Virus record (IMG/VR): IMGVR_UViG_3300028786_000156
Location: 1 to 20,008 of that record
From: a virus
Length of the DNA: 20,008 nucleotides
Reading direction: 5' to 3' (one strand)
Shown here: piece after piece, positions 15,066 through 19,446 of the stretch
Numbering within the stretch: position 1 is the first letter of the stretch
Layout: each line of letters starts with the position of its first letter
Translations under genes and position numbers: made by a program
The notes under the pieces: generated by a model
Seen by the model: only the letters and a program-made list of their open reading frames with translations
Told to the model about the DNA's origin: nothing
Database searches by the model: none

Positions 15066-15890
15066 TTGAAGCTCGTCACCCGCGCCGATCTCGGCTGGCC
15101 CGCCTCGGCCGCCCCCACCCAGACCTCGACGAAGGGCGTCAAGGTCCACTACGAGGGCACCACGGTGAGCACCAAGCTGCTCACCGACCACACCGAGTGC
15201 ATCGCCCAGTGGAAGGCCATACGCGAAGCCCACCTGGCGAACACCAAGGAGAACTACTCCGACATCGCCTACAACTACGGCGCCTGCCCCCACGGCTACC
15301 TGCTCGAAGGTCGCGGCCTCGGCAAGCGCACCGGCGCCAACGGTGACCAGCCGCTGAACAAGGCGCACTACGCCGTCTGCGGCCTCGTCGGCAACAAGGG
15401 CCTCACCGAGCCGACCGACGCCATGTTGGGCGCGATCCGCGACGGCATCGAGCTGCTGCGCCAGCACGGCGCCGGAGACGAGATCAAGGGCCACAAGGAC
15501 GGCTACGCGACCTCCTGCCCCGGCCCCGCCCTCTACACCTGGGTCCAGGCCGGCGCACCCCGCCCGGCCGGCACGACCACCCAGCCCGTGACGGACACCA
15601 AGCCCATCGTCGACCTGTCCAAACTCATCGCCGCGGCGAAGCACGACCCAGCCGCGAAGGGCCAGCCGGTCACCTACTCCGGCACCAAGACCGTCGAGAA
15701 GGCCCTCGTGAAGGAAGGGCTACTCGACGAGGCGTACGCAGATGGCTCGTACGGCACGCGGACGGTCGTTGCCTACCAGAAGTGGCAGCGCCGCTGCGGC
15801 TTCACCTCGCCGACGGCCGCCGACGGCATCCCCGGCAAGACCACACTCACCCGCCTGGCCAAGCGCCACGGCTTCACCGTGAAGGACTGA
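15066..15890 (+). CDS. Endolysin: N-acetylmuramoyl-L-alanine amidase with peptidoglycan-binding domain
   Basis: A 274-aa lysin that should cut the amide bond between muramic acid and L-Ala of the peptidoglycan stem. Residues about 1-160 form an Amidase_2/PGRP domain. Zn ligand candidates are His28 (in VKVHYEG), His143 (in KGHKDG) and Cys151 (in ATSCPG), matching the His/His/Cys set of T7-lysozyme-like amidases. The pattern YSDIAYNYGACPHGYLLEGR is the conserved core. A Pro/Thr linker (about 163-185) leads to a C-terminal PG_binding_1-like domain (about 205-274; DGSYGTRTVVAYQKWQRRCG, then DGIPGKTTLTRLAKRHG). There is no signal peptide, so release should depend on the holin downstream. The start is TTG. 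It opens the lysis cassette, right after a terminator. Confidence 0.92.
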   Translation: MKLVTRADLGWPASAAPTQTSTKGVKVHYEGTTVSTKLLTDHTECIAQWKAIREAHLANTKENYSDIAYNYGACPHGYLLEGRGLGKRTGANGDQPLNKAHYAVCGLVGNKGLTEPTDAMLGAIRDGIELLRQHGAGDEIKGHKDGYATSCPGPALYTWVQAGAPRPAGTTTQPVTDTKPIVDLSKLIAAAKHDPAAKGQPVTYSGTKTVEKALVKEGLLDEAYADGSYGTRTVVAYQKWQRRCGFTSPTAADGIPGKTTLTRLAKRHGFTVKD

Positions 15891-15895
15891 CCCTC

Positions 15896-16078
15896 ATGAG
15901 AATCGCCAGCATTGCCAAGTCGCTCATCGCCGGTATCGCCGCCGGCGCCGCGTCGGCCGTCACAGCTGCGCAGGACAACGTCATCTCCACCGGCGAGGGC
16001 GTCACCATCGCGCTCGCGGTCCTCGGCGCGTGGGGCATCACCTATGCGGTGCCCAACCGCCCGAAGACAGACGCCTGA
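15896..16078 (+). CDS. Holin candidate (two transmembrane segments)
   Basis: A 60-aa membrane protein. After the basic MRIASIAK start come two hydrophobic stretches, SLIAGIAAGAASAVTAA (about 9-25) and GVTIALAVLGAWGITYAV (about 33-50), separated by QDNVISTGE and ending in PNRPKTDA. Size, two-TM topology and the 'AWG.TYAVPN' ending are typical of class II-like holins next to Streptomyces phage lysins. It should form the membrane pore that lets the endolysin reach the wall. The ATG is 5 nt after the endolysin stop; its ribosome site would lie in the end of the endolysin gene (GAAGGA). The activity is inferred from context and topology. Confidence 0.8.
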   Translation: MRIASIAKSLIAGIAAGAASAVTAAQDNVISTGEGVTIALAVLGAWGITYAVPNRPKTDA

Positions 16079-16091: not shown

Positions 16092-16352
16092 TTGGACGCC
16101 ACCACCTTCGGCGCGGTCCTCGCGTGTGTCGGCGTGCTGTCCGGCTCGGTGGTGGCGTACATCGGCAAGCGCGGCGAGCGGGCCGACGTGCTCACGGACC
16201 AGGTCCAGGAGGAGCGTGACGGGCTTGTGCGGCGCCTCGCTGAGAAAGACACACGGATCGCGGCGCTGGAACAGCAGCGTCACGACTACCTCGTCAGGAT
16301 CACGCAGCTTGAGATAGAGAACATCCGACTCGGAGGAAACCCGACCCCATGA
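16092..16352 (+). CDS. Membrane-anchored coiled-coil protein of the lysis cassette
   Basis: An 86-aa protein with one N-terminal transmembrane segment (TFGAVLACVGVLSGSVVAYI, about 5-24), then a charged helix (KRGERADVLTDQVQEERD to RITQLEIENIRL, about 26-80) with hydrophobic residues at heptad spacing, so probably a coiled coil. Similar TM plus coiled-coil proteins often stand next to holins in actinophages and are variously called second holin, antiholin or spanin-like. None of these can be shown here. The start is TTG 16092. The stop overlaps the next ATG as ATGA (16349-16352), so the product is probably co-translated with the collagen-like protein. Confidence 0.75.
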   Translation: MDATTFGAVLACVGVLSGSVVAYIGKRGERADVLTDQVQEERDGLVRRLAEKDTRIAALEQQRHDYLVRITQLEIENIRLGGNPTP

Positions 16353-16993
16353 CCCGGACAGAGCGCACCATCGTTCAGCACTGGCGCGGCATCGCCACCT
16401 TGTGCGCGCTGCTCTTCCTGGCCGGGGTCGCGGTCATCCTCTGGCACCGCCAGGACATCTCGGACCGCAAGCACGCGGTGGCGTACGCAGCAGCAACGGC
16501 CGAGGCCAACCGGCGCGGCAAAGCGGTGAGCACACTCGCCGGGGACGTACGGGCCCTGCGCGCGCAGGTCAAAGCGGCTGGCAAGACGCCGGCCGCACCC
16601 GACCCGAGCAAGGCCGTCGCAGGCCTCACCGACCGCACCGAAGTGCCCGTCCCGATTCCAGGCCCGCAGGGCGCACAAGGCACTCCGGGGGCGAGCGGCG
16701 CCAACGGCAAGGACTCCACCGTGCCGGGGCCCGCTGGCCCACAGGGCGAGCAGGGGATCCAAGGCCCGGCCGGACCAGCAGGCCCCGCGGGCGCGGATGG
16801 GCAGGACGGCAAGGACGGCACCGATGGGGCGGACGGCAAGGACGGGCAGGCCTGTCCGACCGGCTACTCGTGGCAGGCCCCGGCGGATGATCCTGACGCG
16901 CTGGTCTGCCGTAAGGACGATGCCCCGGCCCCCACGCCTTCCCCGACCGCTTTGGCCTTGGTGGCGCTGCCGCCGGACCGCCGCCGCATCTGA
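16349..16993 (+). CDS. Membrane-anchored collagen-like protein
   Basis: A 214-aa protein. Residues about 15-33 (GIATLCALLFLAGVAVILW) form a single transmembrane segment, followed by a helical region (about 36-78) that could be a trimeric coiled coil. Collagen-type Gly-X-Y triplets run from about 105 to 122 and, after a short break (STVP), from 127 to 168; the last part is rich in GKD/GTD/GAD. A small end domain has Cys169 and Cys187 (ACPTGYSWQAPADDPDALVC), perhaps disulfide-bonded, and a Pro/Thr-rich tail. The topology predicts the collagen stalk outside the membrane. The function is unknown. The gene overlaps the preceding one and is 9 nt before the fibre gene. Confidence 0.8.
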   Translation: MTRTERTIVQHWRGIATLCALLFLAGVAVILWHRQDISDRKHAVAYAAATAEANRRGKAVSTLAGDVRALRAQVKAAGKTPAAPDPSKAVAGLTDRTEVPVPIPGPQGAQGTPGASGANGKDSTVPGPAGPQGEQGIQGPAGPAGPAGADGQDGKDGTDGADGKDGQACPTGYSWQAPADDPDALVCRKDDAPAPTPSPTALALVALPPDRRRI

Positions 16994-17002
16994 GGAGCCC
17001 CT

Positions 17003-17956
17003 ATGACGCTGCCGACCCGTACGGCCGCCGGCCTGTACCGCAATCTGGCTACCGGCGTCCTCCTTGAGGGCACGGTGGAGCTCGATCCGTATCCGGGGGT
17101 GTGGCACGACAACACCGGCCACGAGGTGTTGAAGGGCGGGAGCGGGCCGGTCACCCTCGTCGCGGGCGCCTGGTCGCTGGCGCTGCCGAGGACCGATGCG
17201 GGTGGCGTCAATCCGACCACGGGCAGGCTGTGGCGGCTGACGGAGACCATCGGCACCGAGCCTGTGCGCGTGCGCTACTTCGCGCTGCCTGCGGGGGACG
17301 GCAGCGCGCTGGACGTGACCGAGCTGATCGAGGCGAAGCCCGGTCCGCTGACCTACCTACCGGTGGCAGGCGCCACCGGTGCCACCGGACCGGCAGGGCC
17401 TACCGGCGCGACCGGGCCAGCGGGCGCTACTGGAGCTGCGGGGGCTGCCGGAGCGACCGGCCCGCAGGGTCCGGCGGGCACCCCGGGGAGCAACGTCGCC
17501 TACAGCGACGGCATCTTCGTCATCGACGACCCGGCTCTCACGATCCTGCCGACTGCCGCGTCGTGGACCGTCGTCCAGTCGCTCCCGGGAACCAAGCTCC
17601 AGGACTCCTTCGAGGCGCAGGTCGGGGACTGGTTCGAGCCTCTGGGCAATGCCCTGATCGGCGGCACCGGTAGCCAGTGGCTGGACTGGGCCCTCCTGGA
17701 CAACACCGGGGCCATCGACACCTTCGCGGGATCCACCATCGGCACACCGCTTCCCCAGGGCAACCCGGTGATTTACCCGAGCACCTCCTTCAACACCATC
17801 ACTAGCCCGCCCGTCTTCAAGATCGCGGCCCGCCACATCGACGGCGGCGGCAAGGCGACCCTCGCCCTCGTCCACCAGGGCTCCGGCGACCGCAAGATCT
17901 ACACGCACCCCGAGTTGCCGTTCCAGCTCAGGATCCGCAGGACCAGGCCCGCCTGA
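17003..17956 (+). CDS. Collagen-like phage fibre protein
   Basis: A 317-aa protein in three parts. Residues 1-120 are a beta-rich head (TAAGLYRNLATGVLLEGTVE, VTLVAGAWSLALPRTDAGGV) of the kind that attaches fibres to virions. Residues about 123-164 are fourteen Gly-X-Y triplets rich in GAT and GPA, probably a trimeric collagen-like shaft. Residues about 165-317 form a globular beta-domain (LPGTKLQDSFEAQVGDWFEP, GSQWLDWALLDNTG), probably the distal tip. There is no signal peptide or membrane segment, unlike the neighbouring collagen-like protein. It may be a tail or capsid fibre, perhaps for attachment to hyphae. Its place after the lysis genes is unusual but known for fibres. GAGGAG is 6 nt before the ATG, and a strong terminator follows. 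Confidence 0.75.
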   Translation: MTLPTRTAAGLYRNLATGVLLEGTVELDPYPGVWHDNTGHEVLKGGSGPVTLVAGAWSLALPRTDAGGVNPTTGRLWRLTETIGTEPVRVRYFALPAGDGSALDVTELIEAKPGPLTYLPVAGATGATGPAGPTGATGPAGATGAAGAAGATGPQGPAGTPGSNVAYSDGIFVIDDPALTILPTAASWTVVQSLPGTKLQDSFEAQVGDWFEPLGNALIGGTGSQWLDWALLDNTGAIDTFAGSTIGTPLPQGNPVIYPSTSFNTITSPPVFKIAARHIDGGGKATLALVHQGSGDRKIYTHPELPFQLRIRRTRPA

Positions 17957-18025: not shown

Positions 18026-18592
18026 TCAGCTCGCGTACCGCGTCACCTTCGTGACCTTGCACGTGATCTTCCCCGACGCATCCGCTGTACCCTGCGCCGT
18101 CTCCTTCGCCGCCTGCCCCGGCGCCAGGTTGTTGGTCGCCGCGATGCCCTCGCTGATCCGCGTACCCTTCGCGTCCACGAACTCCAGCTCGATCATGTAG
18201 TTGCTGGCCTTGCTCGATCTGTTCGTGATCGTCAGCTTCGCCGACGGCCAGTGCAACGCCGAGTCCACAACGCACGCCGTGATCTTCACGTCGCCCTCCG
18301 GCCCCGCCTCGTCGGCCGCGGACGTCTTCTGCGGCGCGCTGCTGGTCTTCGTGCCGCTGCTCGCCGCGGGCTTGTCGCTTGTGTCGCTGCTGCTACCGCC
18401 GAGCACCGCGCCGATGATGCCGATGACGACGACCAGGCCGACGATGCCGAGGCACCCGAAGCCGAGTATCTTCCCGATCGGGTTCTTCTTCGGCGGCGGG
18501 GGCGGCGCTCCCCATGCGGGGCCCTGCGGCTGGCCCCAGCCGGGCGGCTGCTGATCGGATGGCGGCTGCGGAGGAAAGGACTGCTGAGACAT
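18026..18592 (-). CDS. FxLYD-type single-TM protein with Pro-rich N-terminus
   Basis: A 188-aa protein. Residues 1-35 are Pro/Gln/Gly-rich and cytoplasmic (QPQGPAWGAPPPPPKKNP). Residues about 38-65 form one transmembrane segment (IGKILGFGCLGIVGLVVVIG). A Ser/Thr/Ala-rich linker (66-97) leads to an outer beta-domain of about 90 residues: DVKITACVVDSALHWPSAKL, TITNRSSKASNYMIELEFVD, then EGIAATNNLAPGQAAKETAQ. That is the FxLYD/DUF4352-like sandwich common in Streptomyces, with Cys107 and Cys178 placed for a disulfide. It is not part of the phage virion set. It could be a lysogenic conversion (moron) gene or a host gene at a prophage edge. GGGGGG lies just before the ATG. It converges on the late genes and is followed by the GntR gene upstream on the same strand. 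Confidence 0.75.
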   Translation of the reverse strand: MSQQSFPPQPPSDQQPPGWGQPQGPAWGAPPPPPKKNPIGKILGFGCLGIVGLVVVIGIIGAVLGGSSSDTSDKPAASSGTKTSSAPQKTSAADEAGPEGDVKITACVVDSALHWPSAKLTITNRSSKASNYMIELEFVDAKGTRISEGIAATNNLAPGQAAKETAQGTADASGKITCKVTKVTRYAS

Positions 18593-18681: not shown

Positions 18682-19446
18682 TCACTCGTCGGGACGCTCT
18701 ATCCCGATCTCGTACGCGACTTCCCACCGCACGTCCGCAACGGTGATGTCGGCCGTCTCGACCGGCCGGCCGTCGGTGTCGTAGTACGTCCGCTCGATGT
18801 GCATGAGCAGGTCGCCCACGCTGATGCCGAGGAGGTTGGCCTCCTCCTGCGTCGCCCGGCCGGGGCGCGGCACCTCGACGGCCGCGTCGATGATGACGCC
18901 GATCGTCCGCATCCGTCCGACGACACCCATGCCAGCGAGCGGGCCCATCTCGGGAAGGACGATCGGGGTTCCGTCGGTGATGGCCATCGGCTCCCAGCTG
19001 CTCGACAGCTGGACGGGCATGCCGTCGGCGAGGAACTCGTACGTGGTGTGCACGCAGGGGTCGCCCTCGGCGATGCCGAGTCGGGCCGCGATGTCGGCGG
19101 GCGCCGGCACGCGGGCCCGGCTGTGGTTCTCCCACGTCCCGGCCTTGCCCTGCTCCTTCATGTCCGCACGGAACGGGCTGCCGCCGCGCTCCTCGCGGTG
19201 ACGGGATCGGATCATGCGCATGCGCTCGCGCGGCTGCCGTACATACCGGCCGGATCCGGCCCGGCCTTCGAGGAGGCCCTCTATGACGAGGCGATCGAGG
19301 GCGCGCTGCGCCACGTTGCGGCCGACGCCGTACTCCGTCGCGAGCGCGGCCCCAGAGGGGATCTTTTCACCCACGCCCCAGTCGCCCGCCTTGATGCGGG
19401 CGCGCAGGTCATCGGCGACCTGGAGGTACGGGGCCTCTCGGGGCAT
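18682..19446 (-). CDS. GntR family (HutC/UTRA-type) transcriptional regulator
   Basis: A 254-aa DNA-binding repressor candidate. The N-terminal winged helix-turn-helix (about 6-70) reads YLQVADDLRARIKAGDWGVG, then KIPSGAALATEYGVGRNVAQ and RALDRLVIEGLLEGRAGSGR YVR. The effector part (about 90-247) is UTRA-like, with HTTYEFLADGMPVQLSSSW and the late HIERTYYDTDGRPVETADIT motif typical of HutC-type regulators. Such regulators control pSAM2-like integrative elements (KorSA) and some prophages in Streptomyces; here the target is not known. ATG 19446 has AGGAGAG 4 nt upstream. It faces a palindromic site and two small plus-strand genes, so auto-repression and control of the divergent unit are plausible. 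Confidence 0.88.
   Translation of the reverse strand: MPREAPYLQVADDLRARIKAGDWGVGEKIPSGAALATEYGVGRNVAQRALDRLVIEGLLEGRAGSGRYVRQPRERMRMIRSRHREERGGSPFRADMKEQGKAGTWENHSRARVPAPADIAARLGIAEGDPCVHTTYEFLADGMPVQLSSSWEPMAITDGTPIVLPEMGPLAGMGVVGRMRTIGVIIDAAVEVPRPGRATQEEANLLGISVGDLLMHIERTYYDTDGRPVETADITVADVRWEVAYEIGIERPDE

Follow-up and report, generated by a model that had tools for sequence, protein, structure and literature searches.

Collagen rods that carry a small domain at the bacterial surface are familiar from streptococcal Scl and similar cell-surface collagens. Among phage lysis proteins, LysZ of the Corynebacterium phages CL31 and Cog is a product of the lysis cassette with a single transmembrane (TM) segment and N-in-C-out topology (PMC13056207). 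As reported in that paper, deletion of LysZ leads to small plaques, a defect rescued on hosts that lack the lipoglycan layer, and LysZ has been proposed to act on the outer glycan layer (PMC13056207). A small membrane protein with the reverse orientation, LysF1b, has one TM segment, is N-out-C-in, overlaps its holin gene and controls mycobacteriophage lysis (PMC13056207).

The window analysed here, a stretch of viral DNA of 20,008 nucleotides, encodes at 16349–16993 a membrane-anchored protein with a collagen stalk, whose location and architecture are well supported. The genes of its lysis cassette and the parts of the stalk protein are listed below with coordinates and strand.

15066–15890 (+): endolysin, amidase-like, with a peptidoglycan-binding end and a TTG start (phrog_1493 endolysin, E 9.4e-38)
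15896–16078 (+): probable holin of 60 aa with two hydrophobic segments, called from position and size only
16092–16352 (+): partner gene with an N-terminal TM segment, a coiled coil and a TTG start (sequence; pair kept in relatives; charge bias)
16349–16993 (+): membrane-anchored collagen stalk protein, 214 aa (ORF, PHROG 1806, Pfam Collagen, AlphaFold2 model)
16388–16444 (+): TM segment of the stalk protein, residues 14–32, predicted N-in (hydropathy; charge bias)
16445–16576 (+): extracytoplasmic part of the long helix, residues 33–76 (AlphaFold2 helix 3–76; alignment)
16661–16714 (+): Gly-X-Y block 1, residues 105–122 (sequence)
16727–16852 (+): Gly-X-Y block 2, residues 127–168 (sequence)
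16853–16933 (+): Cys-X17-Cys hairpin tip, residues 169–195 (Cys spacing in relatives; predicted hairpin)
16967–16987 (+): C-terminal basic motif, residues 207–213 (LPPDRRR here, LDPxRRxY in most relatives)

The endolysin product gave weak matches to Amidase_2 and PG_binding_1 in Pfam, both below cut-off. The probable holin had no PHROG or Pfam match; the homologous slot is annotated as holin in the phages SF1, SF3, OnionKnight and Kromp. The stop codon of the partner gene (16350–16352) overlaps the ATG start codon of the stalk gene as ATGA, with the stalk gene starting 4 bp inside its partner, and the overlap with the coiled-coil gene reported in a preliminary description of this lysis cassette is real. 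Beyond that description, we found that the product of the coiled-coil gene also has a TM segment, with a charge bias that predicts the opposite orientation.

A TM segment, a helical region, two blocks of Gly-X-Y triplets and a two-Cys end domain had likewise been proposed for the stalk protein, and all were confirmed by hydropathy, AlphaFold2, shuffled sequences and Pfam Collagen. The TM segment reaches a KD hydrophobicity of 2.45 over residues 14–32. The AlphaFold2 model, a monomer prediction built with 65 relatives, has a single continuous helix over residues 3–76 (block pLDDT 84–98), followed by a non-helical linker and then by the collagen region; in the alignment, the extracytoplasmic part of the helix carries the conserved motif RGxAVSTLAGDVRALRxQV. 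The collagen region comprises 6 + 14 triplets with a break of four residues between the blocks. Among 20,000 shuffled versions of the protein no chance run exceeded 7 triplets (99.9th percentile 5), and Pfam Collagen (PF01391) matched with 35.3 bits, above the curated cut-off of 27.2. The tip contains Cys169 and Cys187 and a predicted beta-hairpin (173–176/186–189, pLDDT ~84), and a third cysteine, Cys19, lies inside the TM segment.

A PDB fold search with the predicted stalk model gave no match better than E 7, and the tip alone had no match in Pfam. The sequence matches of the tip in the PDB were repeat beta-propeller proteins, whose shared 'PDG' looks like chance, and a Pfam VMAP-C match to the stalk helix was rejected because it fell under the curated cut-off. 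The LPXTG motif and hydrophobic tail of sortase-anchored surface collagens were not found at the C-termini of the family, which usually read LDPxRRxY and have no hydrophobic tail.

The stalk protein matches PHROG 1806, 'collagen like minor tail' (E 1.5e-33, residues 20–136), across its N-terminal part and collagen. Relatives are encoded by four isolated Streptomyces phages, SF1, SF3, OnionKnight (gp25) and Kromp (gp28), in which they are annotated as hypothetical, collagen like minor tail or minor tail proteins, and an alignment search of viral contigs, which used tip patterns, gave 333 relatives. When Streptomyces genomes were searched with query stretches from Streptomyces loci, 45 of 199 species genomes had a match (E ≤ 1e-15), with some decayed copies and weaker collagen matches among them. 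A phylum-wide sample of 396 genomes contained three with a match, all of them part of the Streptomyces sample, and no family match outside Streptomyces, and at this search depth the family appears to be restricted to that genus. In the SF1 record (NC_028807; locus L001, 7890–8417) gp45 is placed on the minus strand, over the collagen gene that has a plus-strand annotation in SF3; the minus-strand call is probably a misannotation. In the literature covered, outside of which most subscription papers fall, we found no earlier description of a PHROG 1806-type protein as a membrane stalk.

The family has two N-terminal subtypes, A and B, built on one common plan. Subtype A combines a linker of ~67 residues with a collagen region of ~76 residues, while the corresponding values in subtype B are ~34 and ~102; an AlphaFold2 model of a subtype B protein has the same hairpin tip and a shorter helix, ending at residue 62. 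The Cys-Cys spacing of the tip is the same in 77 of 77 unique relatives. Among the modules, the tip has the highest conservation, with a mean pairwise identity of 73% versus 54% for the helix, a difference that is partly a selection effect due to the use of tip patterns in the alignment search; relatives found via other stretches have an equally conserved tip. Such high conservation is unlike that of a receptor-binding fibre. In a minority of relatives (L012, L084 and L266) the stalk and the C-terminal motif are the same but the two-Cys tip is of another type, PPxGWTYT..C..C, suggesting that tips can be exchanged as modules.

The prediction that this protein should sit in the host membrane, also made in the preliminary description, is supported by sequence across the family. 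A TM segment is present in 85 of the 85 complete members analysed and an N-terminal one in 1 of 61 other phage collagen ORFs, bearing in mind that a TM segment was needed to place the starts of the 85 members and that copies without it are broken. In all 85 the net charge is higher on the N side of the segment, predicting an N-in stalk, and in 79 of 80 partner proteins the count of positive residues predicts N-out/C-in. These opposite charge biases would place the collagen rod outside and the coil of the partner inside the cell. Taken as a prediction from sequence, a membrane protein of the host envelope, and not a fibre, is well supported, and the name of PHROG 1806, which refers to the tail, may mislead, as architecture and context point to the host membrane.

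Intact stalk copies close an endolysin, holin and TM/coiled-coil cassette. The start codon of the stalk gene and a stop codon overlap as xTGA in 84 of the 85 unique complete members, for which the choice of start favoured such overlaps, and where the upstream sequence is long enough the overlapping ORF is nearly always a conserved TM/coil gene. The subtype A partner begins MDATTLGAVL..., and in subtype B the slot of this N-anchored coil gene is filled by another coil gene. The product of the latter (in L014, L015, L088, L252–L260 and L266) looks unrelated and has its TM segment at the C-terminus, in an XhlA-like layout. Upstream ORFs in 69 loci match endolysin families as assigned by PHROG scan, at least 55 of them via phrog_1493 alone. 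The lysins are diverse across loci (22% of pairs align) and several unrelated holin layouts occur, with the coil-stalk pair kept. A search with the partner gene alone in 61 Streptomyces genomes gave seven matches, and a collagen gene directly adjoined the partner in all seven.

Conservation away from lysis genes had been named beforehand as an observation that would speak against a membrane protein of the lysis cassette; when this was tested, intact copies were found beside lysis genes. The copies L251, L261, L264, L265 and L093 are broken or truncated, lack either the TM segment or the lysis neighbours, lie in Streptomyces chromosomes, in some cases as a 3' end only, beside housekeeping genes, and were set aside from the cassette rule as likely prophage relics. 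The sole unexplained exception is L262, which has the TM segment, collagen and tip and no recognisable lysis genes just upstream.

Directly downstream of the stalk gene in the window, at 17003–17956 (+), lies a gene for a second collagen-containing protein, without a TM segment. Its first 120 residues have 35–42% identity to tailspike/minor tail proteins of large Streptomyces phages (Kela, Frankenweenie), and we regard it as a probable tail fibre, encoded after the lysis cassette and separate from the stalk protein. The late genes are followed by a proline-rich membrane protein with no Pfam match (18026–18592, −) and a GntR-UTRA type regulator (18682–19446, −).

With textbook rises per residue of 0.15 nm (helix) and 0.286 nm (collagen), the predicted stalk length is 32.1 ± 2.1 nm if the linker is fully helical and 35.8 ± 2.0 nm in a second length model with the linker partly extended. 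The first value is close to the thickness of the Streptomyces wall, taken here from purified sacculi of one species, S. coelicolor, which measure 30.16 nm (PMC7300013). The length is also nearly constant, as the coefficient of variation (CV) of the triplet count is 0.16 in the family and 0.82, about five times more, in the other phage collagen ORFs, which form a mixed set rather than a single family. Subtypes A and B reach a similar stalk length by different splits between linker and collagen. Within subtype A the two lengths seemed to compensate significantly when all sequences were used, an effect that weakened once near relatives were thinned out (rho −0.23, p 0.12), and this claim was dropped; the length argument therefore rests on overall constancy and on the comparison of A with B.

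The combination of a wall-length membrane rod, neighbouring lysis genes and an overlap with a holin-like partner is best read as that of an accessory lysis protein, spanning the wall in the manner of LysZ or a spanin, a reading to which we assign a probability of about 0.5. It is more likely that the product of a gene usually labelled as a tail part acts on the host envelope, at lysis or close to it. The reading builds on features taken from the sequences themselves (architecture, Streptomyces restriction, cassette position, gene overlap, near-constant length and conserved tip), and from these we infer trimer formation, wall crossing, a tip ligand and the role in lysis. The stalk would belong to the late lysis cassette of temperate Streptomyces phages, sit in the cytoplasmic membrane of the host by means of its N-in TM segment and be translationally coupled to the holin-like partner, whose coil would lie in the cytoplasm. 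The extracytoplasmic helix and the collagen rod, presumably trimeric, would pass through the peptidoglycan and present a small hairpin tip, closed by a disulfide, at the outer wall face. Once the endolysin opens the wall, the stalk could then link the membrane to an outer envelope component and help to disrupt or release it, like corynephage LysZ or a spanin.

The preliminary description had suggested that the protein may link membrane and wall in lysis. A link of this kind would fit the wall-length stalk and has a precedent in LysZ, and the overall interpretation given there is partly supported. More tentatively, the protein might be a collagen-based, wall-length 'spanin of monoderms', with the rod length held near wall thickness and the hairpin tip coupling the outer glycan layer to the membrane at lysis. 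It counts against an accessory lysis role in general that the need for a spanin-type protein in Streptomyces is not obvious, as the host has no outer membrane.

The same stalk could instead serve as a surface protein of the infected cell or lysogen with no use in lysis, its tip blocking superinfection or re-adsorption, or altering hyphal contacts. A wall-length stalk with an outer tip, the exchange of that tip for a second type and the temperate nature of the phages, several of which have integrase or repressor genes after the cassette, would all suit such a function. Nevertheless, the stalk gene overlaps a holin-like gene by 4 bp and keeps its place inside the late cassette, both of which point to expression with lysis, and more variation would be expected in a tip that blocks receptors, which makes this function unlikely. 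We are more doubtful that the stalk and its coil partner set lysis timing as a regulator of the holin, with the wall-engaged stalk as brake or sensor. The overlapping gene pair with opposite predicted topologies, the precedent of LysF1b in mycobacteriophage lysis control (PMC13056207) and the use of the same coil-stalk pair with unrelated holins are in line with such a regulator, but timing alone leaves the constant wall-length stalk and the highly conserved tip unexplained. That the protein is a virion tail component, either a minor tail protein or a fibre, as its PHROG and GenBank names, the frequency of collagen in phage fibres and the tail-fibre-like gene just downstream in the window would have it, is improbable given the N-terminal TM segment with its consistent charge bias (against 1/61 other phage collagen ORFs with such a segment), the lysis-cassette position, the near-constant length (triplet CV 0.16 against 0.82 in the controls), the conserved tip and the finding that no relatives beyond the two closest have the downstream fibre after the stalk gene.

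If the accessory lysis protein is the correct reading, a gene that is widespread under a tail label encodes a lysis factor of the host envelope, and monoderm bacteria have phages with a wall-crossing equivalent of spanins, which bears on whether phages of such hosts need more than holin and endolysin. It would also be an unusual collagen, one at work in the membrane and wall of a bacterium. In any case, the way in which PHROG 1806 and its relatives are annotated deserves a second look.

Compared with known systems, the protein resembles spanins of the lambda Rz/Rz1 type in its N-in anchor and long extracytoplasmic rod, both predicted (charge bias, AlphaFold2 helix), in its overlapping neighbour and in the place of its gene at the end of the lysis cassette. 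It differs in its monoderm host and in a collagen rod that replaces the coiled coil alone. Spanins also have a lipoprotein partner, or are unimolecular lipoproteins with a TM segment, whereas the stalk has no outer-membrane lipoprotein partner and its neighbour combines an N-terminal TM segment and a cytoplasmic coil with no lipoprotein signal; membership among the spanins fails on this point. The partner in turn shares with LysF1b (DUF2746) of F1 mycobacteriophages a small size, one TM segment in a (here predicted) N-out-C-in orientation, a cytoplasmic helix and an overlap with the neighbouring lysis gene, but is followed by a collagen gene, and the partner proteins had no match to Pfam PF10874 (DUF2746) even at E 1–10. 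Unlike Scl, the stalk lacks LPXTG or a C-terminal anchor, has an N-terminal TM segment and is phage-encoded among lysis genes. With the PHROG 1806 proteins of SF1, SF3, OnionKnight and Kromp it has in common the TM segment, helix motif, collagen, Cys hairpin and C-terminal basic motif, as well as its place after endolysin, holin and coil genes. The stalk has no detectable sequence relation by BLASTP (E 0.8) to CL31 clg_49, which is likely LysZ from its position and size, and LysZ lacks collagen and acts in a mycolate host envelope. By analogy, the closest functional parallel nevertheless appears to be LysZ of the corynephages, with which the stalk shares one TM segment, a predicted N-in-C-out topology, a place in the lysis cassette and an origin in an actinobacterial phage.
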